Shown here: piece by piece, positions 93 to 17,550 of the stretch | Numbering within the stretch: the stretch's first letter is position 1 | Layout of the letters: each line of letters starts with the position of its first letter | NCBI RefSeq assembly: GCF_001907295.1 | Contig: NZ_MQVR01000009.1 | Span: forward strand, 1-53,358 | DNA length: 53,358 bases | Origin: Bowdeniella nasicola | GTDB taxonomy: Bacteria; Actinomycetota; Actinomycetes; Actinomycetales; Actinomycetaceae | Direction of reading: 5' to 3' | Notes under the pieces: generated by a model | The model's input: the letters and a program-made list of their open reading frames with translations, nothing else | Told to the model about the DNA's origin: nothing | Databases searched by the model: none | Translations under genes and position numbers: made by a program

Positions 93-401
93 CGGCCGAA
101 GCGGTCGCTGCGGGCGTGGGACGATCGCACGCTGATCTACAACGAGAACACCGCCGGGCGGCACCTGGCGAACATTCGAGCTGGCTCGCCCGCCGCAGTC
201 GCGGTAATCGACCGGGAAACCCTCGACGGCTACCGGTTCGTGGGAACACCCCAGGTGCATGACGCAGGCGAGGTGTTCGACGCGGCAGTCGCCTTCGCCG
301 CCGAGCGCGGCATGCAAACCCCGACCGCAGCCGTCCTCATCCACCTCCAAGAGGTCCACGCGCTCGCCCCGGGCGGCACTGCCGGAACGAGGATCGCATG
401 A
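93..401 (+). pseudogene. PNPOx-like flavin-binding protein, 5' end lost at IS junction
   Basis: The frame is open from the IS boundary to a TGA at 399-401, about 102 codons, with no start codon before the homologous part. It reads WDDRTLIYNENTAGRH, then a VAVIDRETLDGYRFVGTPQV segment and HLQEVHALAPGG near the end. This is the pattern of the split-barrel pyridoxamine-phosphate-oxidase-like flavoproteins of actinobacteria, in which the strand after the nucleotide site carries the VxGxxxV-type motif. Full-length members run about 130-150 residues, so the first third is missing, consistent with IS-mediated deletion. The last bases overlap the next ATG as ATGA, which suggests it was once translationally coupled to a downstream gene. 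The substrate is unknown. Confidence 0.55.
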
Positions 402-690
402 GTGCCGCAACCGACACCGTCTTGGACGATGCCGGGGTGAGCAACGATCACCACCCGGAACGGGTGCAGGTCGTCTCCACCGACGACGATGGCCGCAGCT
501 GGCAAGGTCGCCCCGGTCAGTACCATCCCCGACCCTGCCGAGCTCAATCTCGACGAACTCGACCTCCCGTAGGACGACCCCGACCGACTCTGAGCATCGA
601 CACGGCCCGGTGGCAGCAGGAGATGGCACACCGTGACAAGCATCTCGCGCAGTTCCCCGGCCTGCCCGGTGCGATCCGTGCCGTCCACGA
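398..690 (+). other. Mosaic stretch with gene debris, no recognisable product
   Basis: An ATG at 398 overlaps the stop of the truncated flavoprotein and opens a frame to 724, but the later part looks like unrelated fragments joined together. A second short frame from 489 reads DPAELNLDELDLP before a TAG at 570-572. A third piece around 623-690 reads MAHRDKHLAQFPGLPGAI before running out of frame into the metal-binding protein. None of these matches a family I know. I read the stretch as remains of one or two genes left after deletions. Confidence 0.3.
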
Positions 691-1491
691 CCGGTCGCGA
701 ACATCGCCCACGACGCGGAAGTGACCACGATGGTCGGCCCCGGCGGCGACCCGCACACCTGCCAGCCCTCCACCAAGGACATCGAGACGATCCAGAACGC
801 CGACGTGGTGCTGTGGAACGGCCTCCACCTGGAGGCGCAGATGATCGATCAGCTCGAAAGCCTCGGCGACAAGCAGCTTGCCTTGGGCGACGCGCTCCCC
901 GAGGATCTGCTGCTGTCCTGGCCGGAGACCGATGACGAGGGCAACCCGCTGCACGACCCGCACGTGTGGAACAGTCCCGAGGCGTGGTCGCTCGTGGTCG
1001 GCTACGTCGCCGACAAGCTGGGCGAGATCGACCCCGGGAACGCCGAGGAGTACTAGGCGAACGCCGACGCGTATCTCGGGGAGATCGAGGCGGCCGCCGC
1101 CGAGGCCGAGGAACTGCTGGCCAGCGTCCCGGCCCCGCGCATCCTGATCACCGGACACGACGCGTTCAACTACTTCGGCGACACCTATGATCTGGACGTC
1201 TACGCCACCGCCTTCGTCTCCACCGAGGCGGCCCTCAGCGCCGAAGAGTTTTCGGAGCTCGCGAAGCTGATTGCGGACAATCAGGTGCCGGTGATCTTCC
1301 AGGACAACCAGGCCAACCCGCAGGCGATCACCAGCCTGCGCGAAGCCATCCGCGCGCTCGGCTGGGAGGTCGAGATCTCCGACCAAGAGCTCTACGCCGA
1401 CTCCCTCGGCGCAGATGCCGGCGTGGATACCTACCTCGGCGTGTTCACCCACAACGCGAAGGCCGTCGCCGACGCCCTCGGAACGGAGTAG
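691..1491 (+). pseudogene. Mn/Zn ABC transporter substrate-binding protein (TroA/MntA type), broken
   Basis: This is the remains of a periplasmic-binding-type lipoprotein that delivers Mn or Zn to an ABC importer. The recognisable frame begins PVANIAHDAEVTTMVGPGG and holds the cluster-9 binding-protein landmarks: His in GGDPHT, VVLWNGLHLEAQM, His in DPHVWNSP, GHDAFNYFG, and Asp in YADSLGADAG, which supply the metal ligands in TroA/PsaA relatives. The N-terminal 45-60 residues, including the signal peptide and lipobox, are missing. A TAG at 1054-1056 interrupts the frame; homology continues in the same frame on both sides, so it is a point nonsense change. The ATPase gene starts two bases after its stop, in operon order. 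It is almost certainly non-functional as assembled, unless the stop is an assembly error. Confidence 0.85.
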
Positions 1492-1493
1492 GC

Positions 1494-2283
1494 ATGACCG
1501 CGCCCGTAACCGACCGCGCCACCGTGATCGACCCGAACGCCGCGCTCGCGTGCGCCACCGAGAACCTCTCGGTGGCGTACCGGGCAGAGCCCGTGCTGCG
1601 CGGGGTGAACTTCCGGGTGCCGAAAGGCGTCGTGATGGGGATCGTCGGCCCGAACGGGGCCGGCAAGTCCACCCTCATCAAAGCGATGCTCGGCCTCGTG
1701 AAACCCCTCACCGGAACGAGCACCTTCTTCGGACAGTCCCTCGCCAAGGAGCGCAAGCGAGTGGGGTACATGCCGCAGTCCACCAGCGTGGACTGGGACT
1801 TCCCGACCACGGTTCTGGACGTGGTCACGATGGGCACCTACGGCGCACTCGGCTGGGTACGCCGGCCCGGGAAGACCGAGCGCGCCCGCGCCCCTCGCGG
1901 CGCTGGAGCAGACTGGCATCCCCGATCTCGCCGACCGGCAGATCGGGGAGCTCTCCGGTGGGCAGCGGAAGCGGGTGTTCCTTGCCCGCACCCTCGTGCA
2001 AGCGCCCGAGCTGTACTTCATGGATGAGCCGTTCCAGGGTATCGACGCGAAGAGCCAGCAGGCGATCGTCACCGTTCTGCACGCTCTCCGTCAGCATGGC
2101 AAGACCGTCGTCATCGTGCACCACGACCTTGCGACCGTGCGGGACTACTGCGACCACGTCACGCTGCTGAACCGCCGCATCGTCGCCTCCGGCCCCGCGG
2201 AGGAGTCGTTCACGAAGGACAATATCCGCACCGCGTACGAGGTCACCGCGGACGACGACGCGTTCCTCGAGTTCGCGTCATGA
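1494..2283 (+). pseudogene. Mn/Zn ABC transporter ATP-binding protein, frameshifted
   Basis: This would be the nucleotide-binding subunit of the metal importer. The first part, in frame from ATG 1494, holds Walker A GPNGAGKST, the Q-loop in YMPQST, and the helical domain to GKTERARA. The second part, one frame over, carries the signature LSGGQRKR, Walker B LYFMDEP and the switch His in IVHHD, ending at 2283. The frames fit together if one C is removed from the CCCC run at 1891-1894, restoring ARALAALEQTG. Total length would be about 262 residues, normal for the family. The stop overlaps the start of the first permease. Either the gene is dead or the homopolymer was miscalled. Confidence 0.85.
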
Positions 2284-3215
2284 GCCTGATCGAGTTTTTC
2301 GGCAACCACACCTATCGGATGGTGTTCTTCGGCGCCATGACCATCGGGCTGGTCGCCGGCGCGCTGGGGAGTTTCGCGTATCTGCGCAAGCAGTCCCTCA
2401 TCAGCGACGTCATCTCCCACGCTGCCCTACCTGGCACGTTGCTGGCGTTCCTCACCGCCGCCGTCGTGCTCGGCACCGATGGACGCAACATGATCGGGCT
2501 CATCATCGGCGCGGTCGTCGTCGGCACGATCGCGGTGCTGTTTGCCAACGGCGTCACCCGTACCTCGAAGATCCGCATCGACACGGCGATGGCCGTCTCA
2601 CTCGCGATTTTCTTCGGCGCTGGGATGCTGCTCATGCGGATCATCGCCAACGGTGCGTTCCCCGGCAAGGGCGGCATCCAGGACTACCTGTTCGGCAACG
2701 CCTCCGTGATCACGATCGCCGACCTGACCACAAGCATCACCGTTGGCGCTCTCGCGCTAGTGCTGATGCTGGTGTTCTGGAAGGAGTTCGCGCTGCGCAC
2801 CTTCGACCCTGACCACTCCACCGTGCTCGGGTTCCGGGCGCGCACCATCGACACGCTCATGTTCACCGCGATCGTGATCGCCACCGTGATCGGCGTGAAG
2901 GCCGTGGGTCTGGTCCTCATGGTCACGTTCGTCGTCACCCCGCCCGCGGCCGCCCGCCAGTGGACGCGCACGCTTCCCGGCATGGTGGCCCTCTCGGCGG
3001 TGTTCGGAGCGGCGGGTAGCGGTACCGGCGCCTACCTGTCGATCGTGCTCGGCAAGGTGCCCACCGGACCGCTGATCGTGCTTACCCTGTTCGCGATCTT
3101 CCTGGTCTCGCTGCTGGCCTCGCCCAGGCGCAGCGTCATCACCCGCATCGTCACTCGCAGCCGTGCCCGGGCCGCACTGAAACGCGAGCTCATCCTGGAA
3201 GGAGCGGCCAGATGA
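2280..3215 (+). CDS. Mn/Zn ABC transporter permease 1 (ABC-3 family)
   Basis: This 311-residue integral membrane protein forms part of the metal channel. It starts MSLIEFFGNHTYRMVFFG and keeps the family pattern of 8-9 hydrophobic helices, the early FAYLRKQSLISDVISHA segment that contacts the ATPase, and the late GVKAVGLVLMVTFVVTPPAAA motif typical of ZnuB/TroC/MntB permeases. Its ATG overlaps the ATPase stop by four bases, and its own stop overlaps the second permease in the same way, so the genes form one transcription unit. The frame is intact and normal in length although the ATPase and binding protein beside it are broken. The metal could be Mn, Zn or Fe; the linked DtxR-type regulator favours Mn or Fe. 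Confidence 0.9.
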   Translation: MSLIEFFGNHTYRMVFFGAMTIGLVAGALGSFAYLRKQSLISDVISHAALPGTLLAFLTAAVVLGTDGRNMIGLIIGAVVVGTIAVLFANGVTRTSKIRIDTAMAVSLAIFFGAGMLLMRIIANGAFPGKGGIQDYLFGNASVITIADLTTSITVGALALVLMLVFWKEFALRTFDPDHSTVLGFRARTIDTLMFTAIVIATVIGVKAVGLVLMVTFVVTPPAAARQWTRTLPGMVALSAVFGAAGSGTGAYLSIVLGKVPTGPLIVLTLFAIFLVSLLASPRRSVITRIVTRSRARAALKRELILEGAAR

Positions 3216-4099
3216 GCTTCGTGCTCGGCACTACCCTCCTCGCCGTCGTCACCGCCCTGGCCTGCGCCCTGCCGGGCACCTTCGTCGTGCTGCGGAAGAA
3301 CTCGATGCTCGTCGACGCGATCAGCCACGCTGTGCTCCCCGGCATCGTCGTCGGCTACTTCTTCACCCACAACCTCGACTCGCCTCTGCTGATCATCGGC
3401 GCCGCCCTCGCCGGCCTTGTCGTCGTGCTCGGCAGCGAATGGCTCACCCGCACCGGCCTGCTCACCGGCGACGCCCCCCAAGGGCTGATCTTCCCCGCAC
3501 TGTTCAGCGCCGGGGTGATCCTGGTGACCCTGAACTTCGCCAACGTCCACCTCGACACCCACGCCGTCCTCGTCGGCGGCCTCAACCTCGCCGCCTGGGA
3601 TCAACTCGTCATCGGCGGCACCTCCTGGGGGCCGTCCTACCTGTATGTGATGCTCGCCGTGCTCGCCCTGAACGTCGTCTTCCTCGGCCTGTTCTACTCC
3701 AAGCTCAAGGTCACCACCTTCGACGCCCAGTTCGCCACCAGCCTTGGCATCCGCACCGGCCTGGTGAACACCGCGTTCATGTTCCTCGTCTCGGTCACCG
3801 TCACTGCCGCGTTCAACGCCGCCGGCGCGATCCTCGTCATCGCGCTGATGATCGTGCCGCCCGCCACCGCGTACCTGCTCAGCAGGTCTCTGCCGGTCAT
3901 GATCGCCCTCACCGCGATTATCGCCGTTGCCGGCGCACTGGCAGGGTTCTGGATCGCGTATGTGCTCAACGCTGCGACCAGCGCGGGCATGGCCGTGTTC
4001 TACGGGCTCGTATTTGTAACCGTGCTCGCCGCCACCCGGCTGACACAACGTGCACGGCAACGAGAGAAGCGACGCACCCCGGCGGTGGCGCCCGCCTGA
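3212..4099 (+). CDS. Mn/Zn ABC transporter permease 2 (ABC-3 family)
   Basis: This second channel subunit has 295 residues. It starts MSFVLGTTLLAVVTAL and has the same fold as the upstream permease: PGTFVVLRKNSMLVDAISHA near the N-terminus and FNAAGAILVIALMIVPPATA in the C-terminal half. Two different permeases with one ATPase and one binding protein is the TroABCD / MntABCD arrangement, and the following regulator completes the comparison with TroR or MntR. It overlaps the previous gene by four bases, and 26 bases separate it from the regulator. The reading frame is intact. Confidence 0.9.
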   Translation: MSFVLGTTLLAVVTALACALPGTFVVLRKNSMLVDAISHAVLPGIVVGYFFTHNLDSPLLIIGAALAGLVVVLGSEWLTRTGLLTGDAPQGLIFPALFSAGVILVTLNFANVHLDTHAVLVGGLNLAAWDQLVIGGTSWGPSYLYVMLAVLALNVVFLGLFYSKLKVTTFDAQFATSLGIRTGLVNTAFMFLVSVTVTAAFNAAGAILVIALMIVPPATAYLLSRSLPVMIALTAIIAVAGALAGFWIAYVLNAATSAGMAVFYGLVFVTVLAATRLTQRARQREKRRTPAVAPA

Positions 4100-4125
4100 C
4101 CGGGGCCCGGGCGGGAGGGAAGCGC

Positions 4126-4801
4126 ATGCGCGAGACGACGGCGACGCAGTACCTCAAGACGATCTGGTGCCTCGAAGAACGCGGATTTACCCGCGTGGGC
4201 GTCACGACTCTCACGGAACGCCTCCGCAAGTCACCAGCGACCGTCTCGCAAGCCGTCCAATCCCTTGTCGCGACAGGCCCTGATCACCCACGAACGCTAC
4301 GGTCCCATAGCCCTCACCCCTCCTGGACGCAGGGGCGCGGTCGCCGCGATCCGTCAGGAGCGCATCGCCCGCGCGTTCCTCCACCAGGTGCTCTCCTGGC
4401 CGTGGCCGAACGTCGGCGAGGAAGCCGCAACGCTCAGCCCCGCTCTCAACGACGAGCTCGCCGAACGGATGCACCGCACCGCAGGAGCATCGGGCGCAGA
4501 CCCGTATGGGCACCCCATCCCCGACCAGCAGGGAAACATCGCACGGATCAGTGACCGTCCACTCAGCAGCTTCGCTGCGCCCATAAACGTCAGGGTCACT
4601 CGCGTCGATGACCACGACACGCGCATCCTCGAACGGCTCCATACGCTCGGGCTCATCCCTCACGCAGCGGTTCAGATCAGCAGCCTCGACAAAGCCACCG
4701 GCGTCATCACCCTGACCACACTGTGCGGTCCCACGAGCATCGGACTGGGCAGCGCCGAACACATCGCCGCGATCGCCGCACCCTCGACGCGTACGCCCTG
4801 A
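4126..4801 (+). pseudogene. DtxR/MntR-family metalloregulator, frameshifted
   Basis: It would repress the metal transporter when loaded with Mn or Fe. From ATG 4126, behind a GGAGGGAAG ribosome site, the first frame gives the winged-helix part (TATQYLKTIW, then SPATVSQAVQSLV). Around base 4270 homology jumps to another frame (RQALITHERYGPIALTPPGR), which continues through the dimerisation and metal region (GEEAATLSPALNDELAERM, then DPYGHPIPD) and an SH3-like C-terminal domain to 4801. Removing one base restores about 224 codons, the usual length. It is linked to the transporter and converges with a second DtxR-type gene three bases away. It is the third broken frame in this cluster. Confidence 0.8.
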
Positions 4802-4804
4802 CGG

Positions 4805-5482
4805 CTACGAGACCGGCGTCACCCACACCGCATCTGTCGCCGACCGACCCAACGACAACGGTGCCTCACCCTCCTCGGTCACCACCTCGATGGTGTCCGA
4901 ATAGGGGGCGGCCGGTCGCGTCTCCAGCACAGTCCCGTACCCGACACCATGATCCGCGAAGAACTGCAGCAACTGCGAGTCCTCGTCCGAGATCCGCTCG
5001 ACACGAACCCGCCGCCCTGCCTCCAGCCCCGTCAACAACACCGCATCAGGCCTGGAGACCGTGCCGTCCGCGCCGGGGATCGGATCCCCATGCGGGTCGC
5101 GGTCAGGATGCCCGAGATGCTCATCGATTCGGTCGATCATGAAGTCCGACACCGCGTGCTCCAGCGTCTCCGCCTCATCGTGCACCTGATCCCATCGGTA
5201 CCCAAGCACCTCCACCAGAAACGCCTCGATCAGCCGGTGCCGACGCACCATCGCGACCGCGTGCGCCCGCCCAGTCTCGGTCAACGTCACTGCGCCATAC
5301 GGGGTGTGCTCCAACAAGCCCTGATCGGTCAGCTTCCTGACCGCGTCCGACGCCGTCGACAGCTTCACCCCCGTCCTCGCAGCTACTGTCGACGCTGTCA
5401 CTGGCTCATCAGACCACTCCCCAAGGCTCCACACCGCCTTGAGGTAGTTTTGACTACTCGCTGAAAGAGCTGAAACCGTCAC
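4805..5482 (-). CDS. DtxR/MntR/IdeR-family metal-dependent transcriptional repressor
   Basis: This intact 225-residue regulator has three parts: an N-terminal winged helix (residues about 5-70, SQNYLKAVWSLGEW and STASDAVRKLTDQGLL), a dimerisation and metal-binding domain (HRLIEAFLVEVLGYRWDQVH, EAETLEHAVSDFMIDRID, HPDRDPHGDPIPG), and a C-terminal FeoA/SH3-like domain (residues about 145-225). Such proteins bind Fe(II) or Mn(II) and repress metal-uptake genes. The GTG start sits six bases after a TACTCT hexamer, so the mRNA is probably leaderless. It is convergent with the broken regulator of the transporter cluster and may still control the remaining permeases or genes elsewhere. Whether it senses Fe or Mn cannot be decided from sequence alone. 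Confidence 0.9.
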   Translation of the reverse strand: MTVSALSASSQNYLKAVWSLGEWSDEPVTASTVAARTGVKLSTASDAVRKLTDQGLLEHTPYGAVTLTETGRAHAVAMVRRHRLIEAFLVEVLGYRWDQVHDEAETLEHAVSDFMIDRIDEHLGHPDRDPHGDPIPGADGTVSRPDAVLLTGLEAGRRVRVERISDEDSQLLQFFADHGVGYGTVLETRPAAPYSDTIEVVTEEGEAPLSLGRSATDAVWVTPVS

Positions 5483-5488
5483 GCGAAG

Positions 5489-5494
5489 AGAGTA
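5489..5494 (-). promoter_or_regulatory. -10 hexamer for the DtxR-type gene, leaderless start
   Basis: On the minus strand TACTCT is followed by six bases and then the GTG start at 5482, the spacing expected if transcription begins at the first base of the start codon. No convincing -35 is seen. No clear DtxR-box palindrome is visible, only a short CATC ... GATG pair just upstream. Confidence 0.45.
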
Positions 5495-5635
5495 CCAAAC
5501 ATCAAAATACGATGCGCCGAACTTTCGGTCCGCTCCGGAGATTCCTTTGGCAGCCGTGACTGGCCCGAGAGCTCATTATCTCCTCCACACGTCTGGCAAT
5601 AAGAGCGCGGGCCGCGCGCTGCGCGCGCACCTGAC

Positions 5636-5675
5636 CCCCGAGATCGCCCCTCCCGTGACGGTCTCGGGGAGGGGC
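5636..5675. repeat. Two overlapping inverted repeats, possible oriT or attenuator
   Basis: CCCCGAGA at 5636-5643 pairs with TCTCGGGG at 5662-5669. GCCCCTCCC at 5646-5654 pairs with GGGAGGGGC at 5667-5675. The right arms share bases, so the two hairpins exclude each other. The structure ends 10 bases before the relaxase start codon. No T-tract follows, so an ordinary terminator is unlikely. Function is inferred from position only. Confidence 0.55.
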
Positions 5676-5685
5676 CGTCGTGGTG

Positions 5686-5802
5686 ATGACCATCCGGGTC
5701 ATGTCGTCCGGCAAGGGCTATGAGTACCTTCTGAAATCGGTCGTCGTTGGTGACGGCGACTGGGAGACGAGTAGCCCGCTGACCCGCTGGGGGAGTAGGT
5801 GA
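5686..5802 (+). pseudogene. MobF-type conjugative relaxase, N-terminal remnant
   Basis: The frame from ATG 5686 reads MTIRVMSSGKGYEYLLKSVV then GDGD and SPLTR, and ends at a TGA after 38 codons. Actinobacterial TraA/MobF relaxases, which nick and pilot plasmid DNA during conjugation, start almost exactly this way (GKGYEYLLRSV, then GDGD and PLTRYY). Full proteins exceed 1000 residues. Homology stops after SPLTR at about base 5787, where the sequence passes straight into the 3' end of the ArsR-type gene, so a deletion or recombination joint lies there. Two GTG codons at 5680 and 5683 are alternative starts. The fragment marks this island as derived from a plasmid or integrated conjugative element. 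Confidence 0.75.
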
Positions 5803-6102
5803 TTAGATCGCGGGGAGGAACCGCGTGACCATCGCCGCGATGTTGGGTGCGGCCGAGTAATAGATCCAGTTGCCACGACGCTCACGGTTCACGAGCTTTG
5901 CCTCATGCAAAACCTTGAGGTGGTGGCTCACCGTGGGCTGTGTGAGATCAAAATGTGCGGCGACTTCGTTGACGCACGACTCTTGATTCTCCGCGGCAAG
6001 GATCACCGACAAGATACGCAGGCGCACGGGATCGCCGAGGGCCCGATGGCACGCTGCAAGGTCAGCGGCTTTGGCAGCGCTAAGGGGAAAAGTGTCTGGC
6101 AT
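5803..6102 (-). CDS. ArsR/SmtB-family transcriptional regulator
   Basis: This 99-residue winged-helix repressor keeps the family landmarks: LGDPVRLRILSVIL, the metal-loop position ESCVNEVAAHF, the recognition helix TQPTVSHHLKVLHEAKLV and the wing RRGNWIYYS. The loop has one Cys instead of the CxC of ArsR or the CVC of CadC, so the classical As(III)/Cd site is incomplete. The sensed ligand is unknown and may not be a metal. Its 3' end abuts the relaxase remnant. No resistance gene is next to it, so its partner was probably lost or lies elsewhere. Confidence 0.85.
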   Translation of the reverse strand: MPDTFPLSAAKAADLAACHRALGDPVRLRILSVILAAENQESCVNEVAAHFDLTQPTVSHHLKVLHEAKLVNRERRGNWIYYSAAPNIAAMVTRFLPAI

Positions 6103-6323
6103 TTATATAGCTTGGTAGCTTTGGAAAAACCGCACAACCGCAGAGATTTGAGTGATATGCGACAAAATACATAGATGTCTATATTGGCGAAGGTCACAGA
6201 GTTCTGGCAGGGTGATTGTGGCGGTTGACCATTGAGCTGTTCTGGCAAGCTTTTGGCTCTGGTATCAATACCGCCGCGGTCCATCCTGGGGACTCCAGAA
6301 CCTCAGGACAACATGGCCCGCGG

Positions 6324-6348
6324 CCCGACGCACCCCGAGTGCGTCGGG
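6324..6348. terminator. Perfect 10-bp stem hairpin, terminator-like
   Basis: CCCGACGCAC at 6324-6333 and GTGCGTCGGG at 6339-6348 form a perfect stem with a 5-base loop (CCCGA). The bases after it (CATCTTGC) are only weakly T-rich, so it is an imperfect intrinsic terminator in the + direction. It lies 21 bases before the -10 of the CBS gene and may insulate that gene from the island. Confidence 0.5.
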
Positions 6349-6369
6349 CATCTTGCTCGATATCCGTGT

Positions 6370-6375
6370 TAGGTT
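6370..6375 (+). promoter_or_regulatory. -10 hexamer for the CBS-domain gene, leaderless start
   Basis: TAGGTT is followed by six bases and ATG at 6382, leaving no room for a ribosome-binding site. This suggests transcription from the start codon. Confidence 0.5.
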
Positions 6376-6381
6376 CGACAC

Positions 6382-6801
6382 ATGCGAGTTGACAACATCA
6401 TCCAGAAGAAGGGCACCGAGGTCGTTACCCTGTCGTCCGAGTCTTCGATCTCCACGCTGCTCGCCACGCTGGCTAAGCATTCGATCGGCGCTGTCGTCGT
6501 CGTCGACGGCGATAAAGTCGTGGGAATCGTCTCCGAACGCGATGTCGTTCGACACCTGGCCGACACCGAAAGTGTCGAGGGCCAGATCTCATCCATCATG
6601 AGCCGCGACCTTCAGACCTGCGGACGCGACGATGACATCCGGCATCTCGCCGCGAAGATGACCGAACGGCGGATCCGTCACCTGCCGGTCATGGACGGCG
6701 ATGAGCTCGTCGCCATCGTCTCCATCGGAGACGTCGTGAAGTCCCGGCTCGATGACCTCGAGGCCGAACGCGATCACCTGCACGACTACGTGCACGGATA
6801 A
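6382..6801 (+). CDS. CBS-domain pair protein
   Basis: The protein has 139 residues and consists of little more than two CBS motifs, about residues 8-60 and 72-125, each closing with the family pattern (VGIVSERDVV and VAIVSIGDVV). Stand-alone CBS pairs bind adenine nucleotides in the cleft between the repeats and act as energy or redox sensors. The closest-looking group is the small CBS proteins such as the mycobacterial hypoxia-induced Hrp1 type. A short charged C-terminal helix (DDLEAERDHLHDY) follows. It is convergent with the 64-residue gene, three bases away. The ligand and partner are unknown. Confidence 0.85.
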   Translation: MRVDNIIQKKGTEVVTLSSESSISTLLATLAKHSIGAVVVVDGDKVVGIVSERDVVRHLADTESVEGQISSIMSRDLQTCGRDDDIRHLAAKMTERRIRHLPVMDGDELVAIVSIGDVVKSRLDDLEAERDHLHDYVHG

Positions 6802-6804
6802 GTC

Positions 6805-6999
6805 TTAGTAGACGATCTCGGCGCGCTGCCCGACAAGACAGACGTGGTAGCGCGACGCGTCATCATAGTGCGCGTTCGCTTTATCTAGCGCGGCGTACGC
6901 CTCGAAATCATTCGTCCCACAATGATGCTCGACGACGGTGCACTCTTCGTCCTTGTTGTAGACGAACAGGACCTGGGAGCGGAGAGTAAACAGGTCCAC
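6805..6999 (-). CDS. Small conserved-looking hypothetical protein, 64 residues
   Basis: The ATG at 6999 lies two bases beyond the stop of the DUF1846 gene, and the frame ends three bases before the CBS gene's stop, so it fits tightly at the end of a leftward operon. The sequence (MDLFTLRSQVLFVYNKDEE, then CTVVEHHCG and YHVCLVGQRAEIVY) is rich in beta-prone and aromatic residues, with three Cys and three His. I do not recognise a family. The spacing and ordinary composition argue that it is a real gene rather than a chance frame. Confidence 0.6.
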   Translation of the reverse strand: MDLFTLRSQVLFVYNKDEECTVVEHHCGTNDFEAYAALDKANAHYDDASRYHVCLVGQRAEIVY

Positions 7000-7001
7000 G
7001 G

Positions 7002-8498
7002 CTAGCGTTTTCGGTACAGGCTCTTGACCTGGAAGACGGGCTCGCTCGTGACATTGACTCCGAGGTTACGGAAAATGCCTTCATCGACCGACCCCAAGAT
7101 GGTCGTCGTGTGCACCTCGCATCCGCGCAGGTTCTTCAGCTCCGCCAGAGCGCGGCTCGCATAGGGGGAGGAATCCGCCGAGACCGACAGGGCGATGAGG
7201 ACCTCATCGGTATGCAACCGCGGGTTCCGGCTGCCCAGGTGCTCCGTCTTGAGCGTCTGGATCGGCTTGATCGACTCTGGCGCGAGCAACTGGACTTCAT
7301 CATCGATGCCAGCGAGGACCTTCAACGCGTTAAGCAGCATCGCTGCGGAGCATCCGAGAAGCGGCGTCGTCTTTCCCGTGACGATCGTGCCATCGGCGAG
7401 TTGCGCGGCGGAGGCCGGGCCCTTCGTGCGCCGAGCAACCTCGAGGGCGGGCGGTACGACGGCACGATCCGTGCCCGATACGCCCACCTTGCTCATCAGG
7501 AGGGCGATCCTGTCCGAGATCGTCGAGTCGAGTTCGTCGCGGCGTTCGGCAACGAGCGCCTTGTAGTAGCGTCGGATGATCTCCTGCGTCGCGGCCTCAC
7601 GGCAGACGACATCGTCGCTAATGCAACTGCCGACCATGTTGACGCCCATGTCCGTCGGGGACTGGTAGGGGCAGGAGCCGGAAATCTCATCGAGCAGGAC
7701 CTTCAGCAGGGGGAAGACCTCGGCGTCGCGGTTGTAGGAGACTGCCTGCACGCCGTAGGCGGCCAGGTGGAAGGGGTCGATCAGGCTGACGTCGTCGAGA
7801 TCGGCGGTGGCCGCCTCATAGGCGAGATTGACGGGATGGTTGATCGGCAGGTCCCAGATCGGGAAGGTTTCGAATTTGGCGTACCCGGACTGAATGCCGC
7901 GTTGGTGGTCGTGGTAGATCTGCGACAGGCACGTGGCGAGCTTGCCGGAGCCGGCGCCGGGTGCGGTAACGATGACGAGGTCGCGGCTGGTCTCGATATT
8001 GTCGTTGCGGCCAAAGCCCGCTTTCGACACGACCGTTCGGGTGTCGGCCGGATACCCCTTGATCGTGCGGTGCCGCGAGACCTTCAGACCGAGCCGTTCC
8101 AGGCGTGTGCGGAAAGCGCGCGCCACGGGATTGTTTTCATCGAGCTGGGTCAGCACGACGTTTTCGACGAGGAAACCGCGTTCGCGAAAGACGTCGATCA
8201 GCCGCAGCGCTTCGTCTTCGTAGGGGATACCAAGGTCGGAGCGGAACTTCTTCGCCTGCAGGTTCTTCGCGTTGATGACGACGACGATCTCGATCTCGTC
8301 TACGAGCTGCTGGAGCATCGCGATCTTGTTATCCGGGGTGAAGCCCGGCAGCACCCGCGAGGCGTGCATATCGTCGAAGAGTTTGCCGCCCATCTCGAGG
8401 TAGAGTTTGCCGCCGATCGTTTGGCGGCGAGCGGCGATTTGCTGAGACTGGAGTTCGATATAGCGGGCTCGGTCAAAACCAATGGCATGGGGCGGCAC
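7002..8498 (-). CDS. DUF1846 family protein
   Basis: This 498-residue cytosolic protein belongs to the DUF1846 family, whose biochemical role I do not know to be established. The family start is evident: [16 protein letters not shown], then [15 protein letters not shown] and [14 protein letters not shown]. Later blocks include [20 protein letters not shown] and [15 protein letters not shown], a nucleotide- or phosphate-binding-like glycine segment. I chose GTG 8498 (VPPHAIGFD) because family members begin just before IGFD; the open frame extends further upstream without homology. It lies 29 bases after the 199-residue gene and two bases before the 64-residue gene, so the three are probably co-transcribed. 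Confidence 0.8.
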
Positions 8499-8527
8499 GG
8501 CTAAGAGTCTAGTGGATAGTCTCCGGC

Positions 8528-9127
8528 TCAGTGGGGAAGTTCTGGAGGCGAGGCTGGCCCCGCGAGGCTTTCCGGCAACTGGGGGTGGTGCGGGGCGCGC
8601 ACGATCGCCCACAGGTAAAAGATCAGTTCGGCGAGCTCGGAGGTCAGCTGCCAGCGGATGCTGCCCTGAGTGGAGCGTCCGACGATCTCGATGACCTGGT
8701 CGGCAACGACGGAGCAGTAGTCGATCGCTCCCCAGGCCCAATAGTGGATACCGCTGGGGGAAGCGAGGTAGAAGCCGAGCGGGGAAATCGCGAGGGCGCC
8801 GCCTTCGCCGCGAACCCAGCGTGGCTGCATCGCCCGTTCGGCGGCCTTTTTCCGCCGGGCGTTACACACCGCCTGACCCGCCATGACGCCTGCGGTCAGG
8901 GCGAGGCCAATCTTGCCCGTGCCAAGGAACAGCCCCCGGCTCTTCGCGTAGCTGCCATCGGAGGTGGCGACGAAGGCGCGCAGCTCATAGGACGACATCG
9001 CGATGATCCGCTCGGTCGCGGGGTCGCCCTGCATGGCGAAGGGGACTCGCACCATCGGCAGTTCCTCACCCGCCATGACCCGGCCGACGAGGGCGCGAAG
9101 CGCGGCAAGGCGTGGCGTCTCGTCCAT
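8528..9127 (-). CDS. Hypothetical protein, 199 residues
   Basis: The start is ATG 9127, behind a good AAAGGAG ribosome site. The protein has a hydrophobic stretch around residues 68-85 ([19 protein letters not shown]) followed by a basic NARRKK segment. The second half is rich in aromatic residues ([20 protein letters not shown], then [20 protein letters not shown]). That half resembles a single-domain soluble or membrane-peripheral fold, but I cannot name the family. It is the first gene of a probable operon with DUF1846. It is divergent from the SDR gene, with an 89-base gap for both promoters. Confidence 0.65.
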
Positions 9128-9216
9128 CGCGGCTCCTTTCTGGTCGGCTGCATCTTTCCTATCATCCGTGATCGGGCCGACGCGCGCGCCTGCTCGGTCC
9201 GTGTTTGGGTAGACGT

Positions 9217-10116
9217 ATGAGCACCCACGACCAGTTGACGTTCCAAAATCCTGTGACCCGCTACGAAAGCATTACACCGCCGAAGCAGCATCAAGAAGAA
9301 CCCGGGCTCGACGCGGAGCTCACACCGACAGCCGACCGCGGCGAGGAGACCTACCGGGGGACCGGCCGCCTGCAGGGGCGCAAGGCCCTCATCACGGGCG
9401 GGGATTCCGGGATCGGTGCCGCCGTCGCGATCGCGTTCGCGCGCGAAGGCGCCGACGTGGCCATCGGGTACCTCCCGGCCGAAGAGGTCGATGCGCACCG
9501 GGTCAAGGAACTCATCGAGGCGGAGGGCCGCACCTGCGTTCTCATCCCCGAGGATCTGTCGACCAAGGAGGCGTGCGAACGCCTCGTCGCCGCAGCGGTC
9601 GAGGGACTCGGCGGCCTGGATGCCCTGGTGAACAATGCCGGCAAGCAGATCGCCATCGAGGACTTCGCCGACCTGAGTGACGAGCAGGTCACACAGACCT
9701 TCGACGTCAACATCATCGCGATGTTCCGGACCTGCCGGGCCGCACTTCCGCACCTGGCGCCGGGCTCGACGATCGTGAACTCGACGTCGATTCAGGCCTA
9801 TTCGCCCTCCGACCACCTGCTCGACTATGCCGCGACCAAGGCCGCGATCAACAACTTCACGAAGGGCCTATCGCAGTCGCTCGCGCCGAAGGGCATCCGC
9901 GTGAATGCGGTCGCCCCGGGGCCGGTGTGGACGCCGCTGCAGGTTTCCGATGGGCAGCCGAAGGACGCGCTTCCCGAGTTCGGGAAGAACACGCCCCTCG
10001 GCCGCGCCGGTCAGCCGACCGAGATGGCGCCGTGCTATGTCTTTTTGACGTCGCCGGAGTCCAGCTACGTCGTCGGGGAGACCCTCAACGCGAACGGCGG
10101 GCAGGTCTCGCCTTAG
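9217..10116 (+). CDS. SDR-family NAD(P)-dependent oxidoreductase (YghA-like)
   Basis: This 299-residue short-chain dehydrogenase has the cofactor motif TGGDSGIG at residues 60-67, NNAG in the central sheet, and the catalytic pair Tyr204 and Lys208 in DYAATKAA with the preceding Ser segment STSIQAY. The 50-residue N-terminal extension (QNPVTRYESITPPKQHQEEP) is characteristic of the YghA / general-stress subgroup, which acts on small aldehydes or alcohols with NAD(P)H. ATG 9217 is preferred; an in-frame TTG 12 bases upstream is possible. Its 3' end overlaps the FMN reductase gene by four bases on the opposite strand. The substrate is unknown. Confidence 0.9.
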   Translation: MSTHDQLTFQNPVTRYESITPPKQHQEEPGLDAELTPTADRGEETYRGTGRLQGRKALITGGDSGIGAAVAIAFAREGADVAIGYLPAEEVDAHRVKELIEAEGRTCVLIPEDLSTKEACERLVAAAVEGLGGLDALVNNAGKQIAIEDFADLSDEQVTQTFDVNIIAMFRTCRAALPHLAPGSTIVNSTSIQAYSPSDHLLDYAATKAAINNFTKGLSQSLAPKGIRVNAVAPGPVWTPLQVSDGQPKDALPEFGKNTPLGRAGQPTEMAPCYVFLTSPESSYVVGETLNANGGQVSP

Positions 10117-11438: not shown

Positions 11439-12683
11439 ATGTCGAGTCACGATTCGACAGCCGAGAACACCGCGGCTGTCCGCACCCCTAAGGCCACTGG
11501 CTCCGGCACCCTCCTCGGCGCCATCTTCCTTATGGCTACGTCCGCTATCGGACCCGGTTTCATCACCCAAACCACGAACTTTACGATCACTATGGGCGCG
11601 GCCTTCGCGGCCGCGATCCTCATCTCGATCCTCGTCGATATCGCCGTCCAGTTGAACGTCTGGCGCGTCATCGGCGTCTCCGCGAAGCGTTCGAACACCC
11701 TCGGCAACGAGGTCCTGCCGGGTCTTGGCTGGGCGATCGGCGGAATGGTCGCCCTCGGCGGCCTGGTCTTTAACGTCGGCAATATCGCCGGCGGCGGACT
11801 CGGCCTGAACGCACTGTTCGGGCTGGACGCGAAGATCGGTGGCCTCATCACCGCCGCGATCGCCATCGGCGTCTTCCTCTGGAAGGCCGCGGGCAAGGCC
11901 CTCGATACTCTCGTCATCGTTCTCGGCTTCATCATGATCATCCTCATGATCTACGTGACGGCCGTTTCCAGCCCGCCCTACGGCGAGGCCCTGAAGCAGA
12001 CGGTGATTCCCGATCAGTGGAGCTTCGTCGCGGTCACCACCCTCATCGGCGGCACCGTCGGCGGCTACATCACCTACTCCGGTGCCCACCGCATGATCGA
12101 CACGGGCATCACGGGCCCGGAGAATATCTCCCGCATTTCCCGCTCGTCCATAGTCTCGATCCTCGTCACAGGCGTCATGCGCTTCCTGCTCTTCCTCGCG
12201 ATCCTCGGCGTCGTCTCCACCGGCGTGGACCTCACGAACGAGGAAAACCAGGCGGCCTCCGCCTTCCAGCACGCTGCCGGCACCCTCGGCCTGCGACTGT
12301 TCGGCATGATCCTGTGGGGCGCGGCGATCACGTCGGTCGTGGGCGCGGCGTTCACCTCCGTGTCGTTCCTGACGAAGCAGGGCGCCTCGGTGTGGACCCG
12401 CAATATCGTCACGGTCGCCTTCATCGTCGTCTCGTCGATAGTCTTCACGTTCCTCGGCAAGGCCCCGACGACGCTGCTCATCATCGCGGGCTCCGTCAAC
12501 GGCCTCATCCTGCCCGTCGGTTTCGCGCTGATCCTATGGGTCGGCTGGCGCCGCCGCGACCTCATGAACGGCTACGTCTACCCGGTCTGGCTGCTCGTCA
12601 TCGGAACCGTGACGTGGCTGCTGACGATCTACCTCGGCTGGCAGGCCCTCGGCGGCATCGCCAAGCTCTGGCAGGGCGGATAG
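11439..12683 (+). CDS. Nramp-fold membrane transporter (YcsG-like), probably lactam/oxoproline linked
   Basis: This 414-residue protein has about 11 transmembrane segments in the Nramp/LeuT-like pattern. It is not a typical manganese transporter: the first-helix motif DPGN is replaced by GPGF (residues 38-41, in [13 protein letters not shown]), and I find no MPH-type motif in the sixth helix, where [16 protein letters not shown] appears. In Bacillus the Nramp-like ycsG lies between ycsF (pxpA) and ycsI, and here the gene directly precedes a ycsI homologue and faces pxpA. A role in uptake of 5-oxoproline or a related lactam is the likeliest inference. A GAAAGGAC ribosome site lies upstream, with TAGAGT at 11404-11409 as a possible -10. 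Confidence 0.8.
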
Positions 12684-12685
12684 TC

Positions 12686-13474
12686 ATGAGTACGGATGTT
12701 GCCGCCCTGACGCCGGCGGAGGCGCGCGCCCGCTTCCGGGACGGACTGCACGTCCCGACGAGCGGGTGGTGCGCCGGCTATGCGCAGGCGAATCTCATCA
12801 TCGTGCCGAAGGACTACGCCTTTGACACGTTGCTGTTCGCACAGCGCAACCCGAAGCCGTGCCCCATCCTCGGCGTGCTCGACGCCGGGGAAACGACGGG
12901 GCCGCTGCTGCGTGGCGGCGACATCCGCACCGACCTGCCCGCGTACACGGTCTACCGCGATGGCGAACTGGTCGAGACGGTCACGGACCTGAGCGAGCAT
13001 TGGCGCGATGACCTCGTGACGTTCATCGTCGGGTGTTCCTTCACGTTCGAAGCGCCCCTGTTGCAGGCGGGGATCCCGATCGCGCATATCGACCAGGGCT
13101 GCAACGTGCCGATGTATCGCACGTCGATCCGTTGCGAGAGTGCCGGCCGGATGGCCGGTCCGATGGTCGTCTCAATGCGTCCGATCCCCGCGACGCGGGT
13201 GTCCGATGCCGTGCGCATCACGTCGCGCTATCCGGCCGTCCACGGCGCGCCCGTGCACGTCGGGGATCCGAGCCGGATCGGTATTTCGGACCTTTCGCGG
13301 CCGAATTTCGGGGAGCCCGTCACGGTTCCCGATGGCACGATCCCGGTGTTTTGGGCGTGCGGCGTCACCCCGCAGGCGGCCGTGATGGAGTCACGCCCGC
13401 CGATCGCGTTCGGACACGCGCCCGGGTGCATGCTCATCACGGACGCGGCCGATACCGACTACCTCATTCCGTAG
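12686..13474 (+). CDS. DUF1445 / YcsI family protein (putative hydro-lyase, D-glutamate cyclase-like)
   Basis: This 262-residue protein has the YcsI family pattern: [12 protein letters not shown] and [14 protein letters not shown] at the start, [13 protein letters not shown] and [10 protein letters not shown] in the middle, and [14 protein letters not shown] plus [12 protein letters not shown] at the end. The conserved Cys and His residues are retained. Relatives are annotated as hydro-lyases, and the mammalian DUF1445 protein is a D-glutamate cyclase that interconverts D-glutamate and 5-oxo-D-proline, which suits a 5-oxoproline gene cluster. It starts two bases after the transporter stop and overlaps the biotin carboxylase 3' end by 11 bases on the other strand. 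Confidence 0.85.
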
Positions 13475-15215
13475 CGAATTGCGCGAGCAGGTCGTCGAGC
13501 GCGACCTTATCGCCGACGGCGACCTTGAGGGATTCGATGGTGCCTGCCCGGTGGGCGGGCACCGGGGTCTCGGTTTTCATCGCCTCGAGTACGACGATGG
13601 GATCGCCCTGCTCGACCTCCTCACCATCGGAGACGAGCACCTTCAGCACGCTGCCGGCCATGGGGGAGCGTAGCTCGTCCGGGTTTGCCGTCTCCTCTTG
13701 CGCGGTCCCTTGGAGCGCCTCGAGCCCTGCGCCCCCGCCCCCGGAGACGAGGGCCCGCATGAATGCGGCCGGGACACCGAGTTTGGCGTTCTTCCCGTCG
13801 ACCTCGATCATCATGCGGACGCGTTCTTGGCTCGGCACTGCCTGCCGGAAGGCCGGGTCGCCTTCGATGCGGGCGGCGAACTCGTTTTCGATCCAGGTCG
13901 TATAGACGCCAAGGCCCTCATCGCTCGTGAAGGCCTCTTCTTCCAAGACCGCGCGGTGGAACGGCAACACCGTCGTGATTCCGCGGATGCGCAGCTCTTT
14001 GAGGGCCCGACGGGCCCGCCGGATCGCGTGCTTGCGCGAGATGCCCGAAATGATGACTTTCGCGAGCATCGAGTCATAGCGGCCCGAGATGACCGAATCG
14101 GTGTGGACACCGGTATCGACGCGGATGCCAGGGCCCGTCGGTGGGTCGAACACGTCGACCGTGCCCGTCGCGGGTAGGAAGCCGCGGCCGACGTCCTCGG
14201 CGTTGATCCGGAATTCGAACGCGTGGCCGGTCGGCTCGACGTCGCCTGCCAGCGGGACGGGCTGGCCGTCGGCGATCTGCAACTGCGCGAGGACCATGTC
14301 GATGCCGGTGACCTCCTCGGTCACGGTATGTTCGACCTGGATGCGGGTGTTGACCTCCAAGAACGAGATCGTGCCGGAGGCACCGAGGAGGTATTCGACG
14401 GTGCCGACGCCGATATAGCCGGCCTCGCGGCAAATATCGCGCGCGGAGTTCACGATGAGGGACTTTTGTTCGTCCGTGAGGAACGGGGCGGGGGCCTCTT
14501 CGATGAGTTTTTGGTTGCGGCGCTGCAGCGAGCAATCGCGGGTGCCGAGCACGAACACGTTGCCGTGGCTGTCGGCGATGACCTGGGCTTCGACGTGGCG
14601 AGGCCGCTCGAGGAACTGTTCGAGATAGCACTCGCTACGTCCGAACGCGGCCTGGGATTCGCGCACCGCCGACTCGAAGGCCTCCTCGACATCGGCGAGC
14701 TTGTGCACGACGCGCATGCCGCGGCCGCCGCCGCCATAGGCTGCCTTGATCGCGATCGGGAAACCGAGCTCTTCGGCGATGGCGCGCGCCTCGCGCGAAT
14801 CCGAGACGTTGCCGTCGCTGCCTTTGACGAGCGGCGCGCCGACCTTCTGGGCGATCTTTCGGGCCGCGACCTTATCGCCGAGCAGCTCGATCGTCTCAGG
14901 GTTCGGCCCGATCCAGGTCAGGCCCGCGTCGATCACGGCCTGGGCAACCTCGGCACGTTCGGCGAGGAAACCATAACCGGGATGGATAGCGTCGGCGCCA
15001 CTGCGCTTCGCGATCGCGAGGATCTTGTCGACGTTGAGATAGGTGTCGGGGACCGCGTCGCCCTCGAGCGAATACGCTTCGTCGGCGACGCGCACATGCA
15101 GGGCCTCCGCGTCGGGGTCGGCGAAGATCGCGACGGAGGAAATCCCCGCCTCGGCGCAGGTGTGCGCGATGCGGACCGCGATCTCACCGCGGTTGGCGAT
15201 CAGAACCTTCTTCAT
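13464..15215 (-). CDS. Biotin carboxylase fused to biotin carrier domain (AccC/AccA-like)
   Basis: The protein has 583 residues. The biotin carboxylase part (about 1-445) starts [19 protein letters not shown] and has the ATP-grasp blocks [24 protein letters not shown] and [19 protein letters not shown] linker leads to a biotinyl domain with [14 protein letters not shown], where Lys547 is the biotin attachment site. The enzyme carboxylates biotin with ATP and bicarbonate. It is the last gene of the pxpA-pxpBC unit, overlapping the upstream stop by four bases, so it is probably used with them rather than in fatty-acid synthesis. No acyl-CoA carboxyltransferase gene is nearby. See the findings for the urea-carboxylase comparison. 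Confidence 0.92.
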
Positions 15216-16798
15216 GAGTGGTCTCCTATGGCGTCGTCAGCGACGGAGGGCAGGTGGTAGAGGCGGAACCGGATCTTGGAGCCGGGCGGCAGTTGGGCGA
15301 GCACGTCGAGATCGTGATGGGGGACGACCCCAATCACGGGATAGCCACCGGTCACGGGATGGTCGCGCATGAACACGACGGGTTTGCCCTCGCGCGGGAT
15401 CTGGATCGCGCCGGCAACGGTCCCTTCCGAGGGCAGTTCGCCGAGGTCGCGCGTCGTGAGGGGCTCGCCATCGAGCCGCAGCCCGATCCGGTTCGAAATA
15501 TCAGTGACGGTCCACTCCTGGGACAGCAGCAGGTCGATCTGGTCGGGATCGAACCACTCGTCGCGCGGCCCCAAAATCACCGAGACCGACACGAGGTCGC
15601 GCGGCAGCGTCGGCGCATGCTTCGGATCGGAGACGAACGACGGCCACTGCGGGGCCCCCACCCGCACGACGTCGCCCGCGGCAAGGGGCGCCGGCCCTTC
15701 GCCCGAGAGGAGGTCACTCGAGGTCGAGCCGAGGACCTCGTCGGCCTCGATACCGCCTCGCACGGCGAGGTAAGAGCGCAGCCCGCGGCGCGGCGCACCG
15801 ATCGCAAGGCGCTGGCCCGACAGCAGCGCGAACGGCCGGTTGATCTCCGGCGTGTACTCGCTGACGTCGCCGCCGAGCGGCTCGCCCGTGATCCGCAGCG
15901 GAACGTCAGCGCCCGCGACCCCGGCAACGAGGTCGCCGATCGCTTCAATCGTGAGGCCGCCCATGAGGTTTTCGATGACCGTGCCGCCCGTCGGATTCCC
16001 GACCAGGAGATTCGCGCGGCGCGCGCTACGCAAATCCATTGCGCCCGAAGCCGAGACCCCCAGGTCGGCAAAGCCGACGCGGCCCTGGTCCTGGAACAGC
16101 GACTGCAGGCCCGTTGCGACGACGCGAAACCCGTAGTCAACGGGCGGGGCCTCGCCTGTGGGGCGCTCGGCGAGCTGGATCAGTTCCGGCACCGCGCGAT
16201 AACGCACGATATCGCCGGGGGCGATGAGCGAGGGGCGCTCGCGGGCGGTATCCCACATCGGCTCGGCGGTGCGGCCCAGCAACTGCCAGCCGCCCGGCGT
16301 GGCACGGGGATAGACGGCCGAGAAGTTCCCGGCGATCGCGACTGCGCCGGCGGGCACGGCCGTACGTGGGGAGGAGCGACGCTCAACGTCCAGCGAGTCG
16401 TTCTCTCCGACGCAGTAGACGAATCCCGGCGCGAACCCGCCGAACGCGGCGGTCCAGGCCTGCGAGGTGTGCGCCTGGATGACGGCCTCGCGGCTCATCC
16501 CGACGAGGCGGGCGACATCGTCGAGGTCTTCGCCGTCGTAGCAGACGTCGAGGGTGATCTCTTCGGAGTCTCGCGTGACTGGCCCGGTGACCTGTAGTTC
16601 GCGGACATGGCGCGCGAGCTCGATCGCGGCGACCGGCGAGATCGCCCGCACGAGCACGGTGCGCGCGGCGGCGAGGCATTCGAGCATGCCCGTGGGCTTC
16701 GAGGTGACGAGCTCCTGGTGGAGGGCGAGGACATCCTCGAGCGAATCGAGTTCGACGAGGAAGGCCAAATCCCCGCAGGGAACGATCGTGCGGTTCAT
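15212..16798 (-). CDS. Fused 5-oxoprolinase subunits B and C (PxpB-PxpC; KipI-KipA, AHS1-AHS2)
   Basis: This 528-residue fusion has two domains. The N-terminal AHS1/KipI domain (about 1-215) has EEITLDVCYDGEDLDDVAR, AFGGFAPGFVYCVG, RTAVPAGAVAIAGN and YPRATPGGWQLLGRT. The C-terminal AHS2/KipA domain (about 225-520) has LQSLFQDQGRVGFADLGV, SGAMDLRSARRANLLVGN, SYLAVRGGIEADEVLGS and GGYPVIGVV. Separate PxpB and PxpC act with PxpA to open 5-oxoproline to glutamate at the cost of ATP; here B and C are one chain, as in several actinobacteria. ATG 16798 overlaps the pxpA stop by four bases, giving a PxpA-PxpBC stoichiometry. The open frame continues upstream of this start, but only as a shadow of pxpA. 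Confidence 0.9.
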   Translation of the reverse strand: MNRTIVPCGDLAFLVELDSLEDVLALHQELVTSKPTGMLECLAAARTVLVRAISPVAAIELARHVRELQVTGPVTRDSEEITLDVCYDGEDLDDVARLVGMSREAVIQAHTSQAWTAAFGGFAPGFVYCVGENDSLDVERRSSPRTAVPAGAVAIAGNFSAVYPRATPGGWQLLGRTAEPMWDTARERPSLIAPGDIVRYRAVPELIQLAERPTGEAPPVDYGFRVVATGLQSLFQDQGRVGFADLGVSASGAMDLRSARRANLLVGNPTGGTVIENLMGGLTIEAIGDLVAGVAGADVPLRITGEPLGGDVSEYTPEINRPFALLSGQRLAIGAPRRGLRSYLAVRGGIEADEVLGSTSSDLLSGEGPAPLAAGDVVRVGAPQWPSFVSDPKHAPTLPRDLVSVSVILGPRDEWFDPDQIDLLLSQEWTVTDISNRIGLRLDGEPLTTRDLGELPSEGTVAGAIQIPREGKPVVFMRDHPVTGGYPVIGVVPHHDLDVLAQLPPGSKIRFRLYHLPSVADDAIGDHS

Positions 16799-17550
16799 GC
16801 GAAGGCTTTCAACTCGATGCCGGCGGCGGTCAGGGCCTCGCGGACCTGCTGGGCGAGCGAAACCGCGCTGGGCGTGTCGCCGTGGACGCAGATCGATTCG
16901 GCTTCGAACCGCACATCGGACCCATCGATCGCCTCGATGACGCCGTCGGCGACAAGCCTCACCATGCGTTCGGCCGCGACGTCCGGATCGGTAATGACGG
17001 CGCCCGCTTCGCGTCGGGAAACGAGCGTGCCCTCCGGCGTATAGGCCCGGTCCGCGAAGGCCTCCACGACGGGCCGCAGCCCCGCGCGGTCGGCAGTATC
17101 GAAAATGACCGAGTTCGGCAGGCACAGGATCGGCAGCGAATCGTCGAACTCCTTAAGCGCCGCAACGACGGCTTTCGCGTGCGCCTCGTGGGAGATGATG
17201 GCGTTATAGAGCGCACCGTGTGGCTTGACGTAGCGGATTGAGGTGCCCGCCTTCGCGGCAATCGCCGAGAGGGCACCCAGCTGGTAGAGCACGATATTCG
17301 TGAGGTTATTGGCGGGCACGTCGTGGAATACCCGACCGAAGTTCGCAAGGTCCTGATACGACACGTGGGCGCCGACCGCGACGGAGTTCTCGGCGGCAAG
17401 GCCCGTCGTCGTCCGCATCACGGAGGCATCGCCCGCGTGAAAACCGCAGGCGACGTTCGCGGAGGTGACGATGCGCATCATCGTCGCGTCATCTCCCATA
17501 GGCCAGTTACCAAAGGACTCGCCGGAATCGGAATTCAAATCGATGGGCAT
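16795..17550 (-). CDS. pxpA: 5-oxoprolinase subunit A (LamB/YcsF family)
   Basis: This 251-residue protein is the LamB/YcsF-type subunit of ATP-dependent 5-oxoprolinase, which converts pyroglutamate to glutamate in the cytosol. Family landmarks are all present: the start IDLNSDSGESFGNWPMGDD, TSANVACGFHAGD, GAHVSYQDLANFGR, VKPHGALYN, EAFADRAYTPEGTLVSR and ESICVHGDTPSAV. Length is normal. It is the first gene of a leftward three-gene unit with pxpBC and the biotin carboxylase, joined by four-base overlaps. A GGAGAC ribosome site lies upstream. It is divergent from the flavin reductase gene, with 65 bases between them. Confidence 0.95.
   Translation of the reverse strand: MPIDLNSDSGESFGNWPMGDDATMMRIVTSANVACGFHAGDASVMRTTTGLAAENSVAVGAHVSYQDLANFGRVFHDVPANNLTNIVLYQLGALSAIAAKAGTSIRYVKPHGALYNAIISHEAHAKAVVAALKEFDDSLPILCLPNSVIFDTADRAGLRPVVEAFADRAYTPEGTLVSRREAGAVITDPDVAAERMVRLVADGVIEAIDGSDVRFEAESICVHGDTPSAVSLAQQVREALTAAGIELKAFA

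Follow-up and report, generated by a model that had tools for sequence, protein, structure and literature searches.

The Bowdeniella nasicola contig analyzed here (NZ_MQVR01000009.1, our C194, one of 204 contigs in a 2.64-Mb genome; 53,358 nucleotides, the whole of which is called the window) has three adjoining genes that encode PxpA, a single-chain fusion of PxpB and PxpC (PxpBC), and a biotin carboxylase (BC) with its own biotin carboxyl carrier protein (BCCP) domain. The balance of evidence leans, with modest confidence, towards a biotin-dependent lactam carboxylase that is split over two chains and acts together with a hydrolase, and 5-oxoproline is probably the lactam that would be N-carboxylated. 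The cooperation of PxpBC with a BC-BCCP appears well supported: the genes are linked in two phyla, the linked BCs fall in one clade, other BC lineages adjoin split pxpB-pxpC pairs, and Protein Data Bank (PDB) entry 9yx5 places a PxpC-PxpB pair on a complex that contains a BC-BCCP. The initial annotation had proposed such a partnership, which stands, and had asked whether the BC groups with urea carboxylase or with acyl-CoA carboxylases; it does not group with the former.

We infer a reaction in which the BC domain would use ATP and bicarbonate to form carboxybiotin on Lys547 of the BCCP domain, and PxpBC would use this to carboxylate the ring nitrogen of L- or D-5-oxoproline. The resulting N-carboxy-5-oxoproline, its ring now activated, would be hydrolyzed by PxpA to N-carboxyglutamate, and loss of CO2 would then give glutamate. 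Carboxybiotin would be supplied to PxpBC by the dedicated BC-BCCP in the window and by the shared subunit AccA3 elsewhere. No biotin-dependent 5-oxoprolinase was recognized in the literature searched, which covers few subscription journals.

The arrangement in the window recurs in many named genomes and is therefore not due to chance. Among the best 80 of at least 593 confirmed PxpBC loci (the named loci, 79 of the 80 fused), a BC adjoins PxpBC in 71, which includes 37/37 loci in Pseudomonadota and 34/43 in Actinomycetota. Among the nine BC-less loci, the sequence of L158 runs out 46 bases from the gene, and the L172 stretch (1-9683, Nesterenkonia natronophila) holds two pxp sets, only one of which has a nearby BC-BCCP gene. 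Of 299 Pseudomonadota genomes drawn, 14 contained PxpBC at E<=1e-45, giving 15 loci (2 split) with an adjacent BC in 15/15. This draw shares at least one locus with the named set (G213 is the genome of L153), and pairs that are more distant, like the E. coli one, fall outside the threshold.

Within the order to which the window belongs, a linked BC is the minority arrangement. Here 42 of the 59 genomes gave a match, that of G032 being to urea carboxylase alone. The 41 pxp loci fetched from 40 genomes (the order sample) have a type-1 BC in 8 cases, one of which is on a different contig (L050, with its BC on C115, L213), and another BC type in 2; the other 31 have no BC gene in reach, a few of these being close to contig ends. 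The association of PxpBC with a strong BC-BCCP match in the order sample has a Fisher p of 4e-6, with manually entered lists, the threshold chosen post hoc, G032 uncounted and G016 (a gene apparently split over contigs) moved; the value before the changes to G032 and G016 was 3e-7. Since the genomes are related, this result is not leaned on. The strict co-occurrence that the initial annotation named as a check holds in one direction: the clade members seen adjoin PxpBC, but many PxpBC genes lack an adjacent BC. The idea that BC linkage marks out a clade of PxpBC was rejected, as the BC-linked fused PxpBC interleave with others and need 9 changes on the tree. Clusters of fused pxpBC with BC-BCCP were also observed on Klebsiella plasmids (L191 and L195), one of them between IS1 copies.

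The BC-BCCP of the window is best read as a dedicated branch of the AccA3 line of actinobacteria. An 81-row tree, in which the linked BCs come from one named locus in three together with selected others (L079, L080, L081 and L106 being dropped as copies), places all 40 BC-BCCPs used from fused-PxpBC loci in one clade beside actinobacterial AccA3-type proteins, with a value of 97 in the Shimodaira-Hasegawa-like approximate likelihood ratio test (SH-aLRT), and all 36 rows not linked to pxp outside it. A more careful 57-row tree, with long or odd rows (L207, L190, L056, L145) left out and the linked group thinned to 18 rows, gives this clade a bootstrap of 100 and an SH-aLRT of 99. In the same tree the clade is joined to the actinobacterial AccA3-type alpha subunits with 96/93, and the AccA3 group itself has 67/84. 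A urea-carboxylase origin of the BC domain was rejected by the approximately unbiased test (three urea carboxylases, p=0.002). In the BC tree (14 rows, 97), and again in the PxpBC tree (13 rows, 99), the Pseudomonadota sequences group as a subclade, a pattern expected from transfer of the whole cassette between phyla. Strongly diverged AccA3-type proteins were seen in genomes of the window's own family and of family f3 (L204, L205, L207, L208), and the four other genomes sampled from the window's own family are without PxpBC.

Other BC lineages are found beside split pxpB-pxpC. The order pxpB-pxpC-BCCP-BC-cyclase-pxpA occurs whole on a Lactiplantibacillus plantarum plasmid (L190) and in three loci of the actinobacterial family f40 (L241-L243), and L244 has the first five of these genes in its stretch. 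The order is pxpA-BCCP-BC-pxpB-pxpC in L073, L074 and L194, pxpB-pxpC-pxpA-BCCP with a divergent BC in L249 and L250, and BCCP-BC-BCCP-like-pxpB-pxpC-pxpA in Rhizobium (L192). The second BCCP-like protein in this Rhizobium brockwellii operon (L192:5258-5695) is without an AMK-type biotinyl motif. Fifteen loci from a phylum sample have BC and BCCP in 6 cases, BCCP only in 1 (L246, at a contig end) and neither in 8. Because these other BC and BCCP lineages adjoin split pxpB-pxpC, the BC link arose repeatedly; a 74-row BC tree requires 5 changes to explain the pxp-linked label. The test of one origin for every pxp-linked BC covered the first five split-type BCs, and their union with the linked clade was rejected (p=2e-5). 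A six-gene operon in S. aureus includes pxpB, pxpC, pxpA, accB and accC, and the portion of PMC11315280 consulted assigns the last two to acetyl-CoA carboxylase in fatty acid synthesis. The split operons (L190, f40, S. aureus) resemble the window in that BC and BCCP genes adjoin pxpABC, but BC and BCCP are separate genes, and those of L190 and f40, the two compared, come from other BC lineages.

The strongest single item for a shared or dedicated BC-BCCP subunit is 9yx5. Its title describes the M. smegmatis long chain acyl-CoA carboxylase complex with MSMEG_0435-MSMEG_0436 bound, which are homologues of PxpC-PxpB. According to the title and chain names alone, the entry has the PxpC- and PxpB-like chains, the alpha3 subunit AccA3 and two AccD-type chains (D4 and D5 by the chain name in a sister entry). 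The entry is similar to the window since a PxpC-PxpB pair, which has 44-46% identity to that of the window (through 3mml), occurs together with an AccA3-type BC-BCCP; however, this pair is on a shared acyl-CoA carboxylase, whereas the BC-BCCP of the window is dedicated and operon-encoded. Nitrogen limitation upregulates MSMEG_0435-0436 according to the excerpt of PMC4617892 consulted. No paper on 9yx5 was found in the literature searched, and print may say more.

The gene content of other genomes is consistent with a shared subunit. Each of six BC-less PxpBC genomes has an AccA3-type BC-BCCP which groups with AccA3 on the tree (6/6), and a linked-clade BC copy was not found elsewhere in these genomes (0/6, with L121 and L172 outside the search). 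Four BC-linked genomes have two BC-BCCPs each (4/4), the second being taken as AccA3 type by identity. PxpC is present at E<=1e-30 in 25 genomes of the phylum sample (149 genomes); 21 of the 25 have a BC-BCCP at E<=1e-135, and in the remaining 4 the BC and BCCP genes adjoin PxpBC. This co-presence alone is weak, since BC proteins are near universal (13/14 control genomes). Actinomycetota with PxpBC but no adjacent BC gene probably use AccA3 itself. A wider and more tentative possibility is that PxpABC enzymes generally, including those without a BC gene, are biotin-dependent lactam carboxylase-hydrolases that borrow a housekeeping BC-BCCP (AccA3, or AccB and AccC) and use N-carboxylation instead of phosphorylation. 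The BC-BCCP in the window would then be a specialized copy of the shared subunit.

The BC-BCCP protein has the Pfam domains Biotin_carb_N, CPSase_L_D2, Biotin_carb_C and Biotin_lipoyl. Fifteen of the 17 compared E. coli AccC positions are identical, consistent with a BC domain that keeps its known catalytic residues except His236; Lys116, Lys159, Lys238, Glu276, Glu288, Asn290, Arg292, Glu296 and Arg338 are among those kept, and the two changes are His236 to Asn and Ile287 to Leu. The biotinyl Lys547 sits in a 12-residue segment with the motif AMKT. This motif is common only to the window and the Bowdeniella locus L109 among the 69 relatives read. The genome encodes two BC proteins (PF02785), the window's and one on contig C129. 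It also has two PF03099 matches above the cut-off, on C129 (4e-12) and C90 (7e-7), which are candidate biotin protein ligases in a family that includes lipoate ligases too.

PxpA scores 352 bits against a cut-off of 226 for the NCBIfam subfamily NF003814 and belongs to the LamB_YcsF family. PxpBC contains CT_C_D (PF02682, E 3e-53) and CT_A_B (PF02626, E 2e-78) in a single chain and exceeds the family-level cut-off of TIGR00724 (252.3 versus 230.2 bits). Its AlphaFold2 model (20-sequence alignment, mean predicted local distance difference test score of 90.2) matches TTHA0988 (Z 39.7 over 469 residues), M. smegmatis 3mml (Z 39.9) and E. coli YbgK (Z 35.6). The PxpC half (model residues 216-526) also has the fold of the carboxyltransferase in K. 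lactis urea amidolyase 5i8i, with a Z of 34.6 and a root mean square deviation of 2.5 over 299 residues; for the PxpB half, the comparison with urea carboxylase is at sequence level only.

The window shares features with two further known systems. The PxpABC 5-oxoprolinases of B. subtilis, C. glutamicum and E. coli also have PxpA and both PxpBC domains, but in the window PxpB and PxpC are fused, the operon includes a dedicated gene for BC-BCCP, and both halves are below the NCBIfam 5-oxoprolinase equivalog cut-offs (PxpB, TIGR00370, 121.9 versus 145.55 bits; PxpC, NF045499, 167.8 versus 500 bits). Urea carboxylase and urea amidolyase (K. lactis, 3va7, 5i8i) have a BC, a BCCP and the same two carboxyltransferase families. 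The window differs from them in having two chains instead of one, carboxyltransferase halves in the reverse order, a BC of another lineage, an arginine (Arg140) in place of Lys1605, and PxpA rather than allophanate hydrolase as the downstream hydrolase; its two chains score 510.1 and 139 bits against the urea carboxylase cut-off of 1303.85 (TIGR02712).

The coordinates and Pfam matches confirm the three minus-strand genes of the initial annotation (Table 1), and the four-base overlaps it described are both ATGA junctions (pxpA/pxpBC and pxpBC/BC-BCCP), with each downstream start inside the preceding stop. Two convergent plus-strand genes were absent from its list. One, a cyclase-family gene, has 11 bases in common with the 3' end of the BC gene; the other encodes a transporter. 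The nearest of the named loci, L109 from a Bowdeniella nasicola metagenome-assembled genome (66% in PxpBC and 84% in the BC domain), has the identical five genes in an identical layout.

Table 1. Genes of the pxp locus in the window.
Feature	Position	Strand	Evidence
pxpA (LamB/YcsF family), 251 aa, proposed ring-opening hydrolase	16795-17550	minus	PF03746 E 2.1e-97; NF003814
Fused pxpB-pxpC (CT_C_D + CT_A_B), 528 aa, proposed carboxyltransferase	15212-16798	minus	Pfam, AlphaFold2 model, structure matches
BC-BCCP protein (AccC-like), 583 aa, biotinyl Lys547	13464-15215	minus	Pfam, AccC positions, BC clade
D-glutamate cyclase family (PF07286, 'putative hydro-lyase')	12686-13474	plus, convergent	PF07286 E 7.6e-67
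NRAMP/APC-type transporter, PxpT/YcsG-like	11439-12683	plus, convergent	PF01566 E 2.5e-23

The two convergent genes give a hint of the substrate. An NRAMP-type transporter also accompanies the pxp genes of C. glutamicum (PxpT of pxpTABC) and B. subtilis (YcsG) (PMC13274462, consulted in part). By analogy, it is probable that the transporter in the window takes up 5-oxoproline. The cyclase family is present in the fetched stretch of 7/8 type-1-BC loci and 0/31 BC-less pxp loci of the order sample (Fisher p of 5e-7, kinship uncorrected). Among the named loci, its presence in 32/71 BC-linked and 2/9 BC-less cases is not a significant difference (Fisher p of 0.29), and three BC-less loci (L187, L193, L255) also carry a cyclase-family gene.

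Several observations weigh against a biotin-dependent reaction. C. glutamicum grows on 5-oxoproline via pxpTABC with no BC gene named, and the word carboxylase is absent from PMC13274462; PxpB and PxpC are said to hydrolyze ATP alone (a secondary mention in the portion of PMC8453981 consulted). In E. coli no BC adjoins pxpBCA, and close relatives of the window's PxpBC (L110, L121, L037, L117) are also without a BC gene. The title of 9yx5 is silent on which subunit contacts the PxpC-PxpB pair. The biotin motif of the window is AMKT versus AMKM in 66/69 relatives. Lys1605, the general base of K. lactis urea carboxylase in the section of PMC5770610 consulted, aligns with Arg140 in the window's PxpB, and arginine occupies this position in 82/82 BC-linked fused and 51/51 BC-less PxpB. 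As a guess, Arg140 may bind the carboxylate of 5-oxoproline, in which case another base would be needed. Split loci that adjoin BC and/or BCCP have arginine in 6/12 and lysine in 6/12 at this position. The lysine is kept (PKY..PRT) in a divergent class of split PxpB that adjoins BC and/or BCCP genes (L073, L074, L194, L246, L249, L250); the substrate of this class possibly differs.

The reported ATPase, the C. glutamicum growth, the 31/41 order-sample loci without an adjacent BC gene and the replaced lysine could all be explained by an ordinary PxpABC 5-oxoprolinase which phosphorylates the lactam on PxpBC, with the BC-BCCP as an accessory (a regulator or a nitrogen-lipid link) that is dispensable for the reaction. 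This explanation deserves to be taken seriously but is unlikely. A passenger BC would not be expected in the 37/37 and 15/15 Pseudomonadota loci (sets that share at least one locus), nor would other BC and BCCP lineages be expected to join pxp in different gene orders; the BC catalytic residues are kept except His236, as is the biotinyl lysine. The binding of a PxpC-PxpB pair by an AccA3-containing complex in 9yx5 also argues against a dispensable accessory, although regulation would fit that alone too. A lactam carboxylase that can draw on a shared housekeeping BC-BCCP would reconcile the C. glutamicum growth, E. coli and the BC-less relatives, but not the reported ATPase.

The biotin chemistry may also be unchanged and act on another substrate, either 5-oxo-D-proline from the neighboring D-glutamate cyclase or another lactam or amide. 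The cyclase counts in the order sample and the scores of both PxpBC halves below the 5-oxoprolinase cut-offs support this, but the named loci and the BC-less loci with a cyclase do not. The B. subtilis pxp cluster, which has a cyclase-family gene and is not known to include a BC, also counts against it. In addition, making 5-oxo-D-proline from D-glutamate and then reopening it would be futile without some intervening step. A different substrate is rather improbable. Lastly, the BC-BCCP could be a second alpha subunit for a distant AccD carboxyltransferase, its position in the pxp operon being historical only. AccA3-type alpha subunits are the nearest relatives outside the clade and the genome does have an AccD-type carboxyltransferase. 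However, this sole PF01039 match lies on C129, where the other BC-BCCP is about 3.5 kb away; therefore, there is no spare acyl-CoA carboxyltransferase for the BC of the window alone. None was found by Pfam among the nine window proteins scanned, which bears out the statement in the initial annotation that no other carboxyltransferase gene is nearby, and the association with a distant acyl-CoA carboxyltransferase, which it named as a refuting result, was not found. In addition, 0/36 BC rows not linked to pxp fall inside the clade, and in five Pseudomonadota genomes the best match is 58-59% and all others are at most 47% (5/5). A role as a subunit for AccD is thus very improbable.

The literature examined, which was available in part, does not settle by what route PxpABC uses ATP to activate a stable lactam; the linked BC-BCCP clade and 9yx5 suggest carboxybiotin. 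If this is true, biotin carboxylation would reach lactams, and genes annotated as acetyl-CoA carboxylase beside pxp, such as those in the S. aureus operon (PMC11315280, consulted in part), may be misnamed. Mycobacteria and their relatives would then share a subunit between lipid and nitrogen metabolism.

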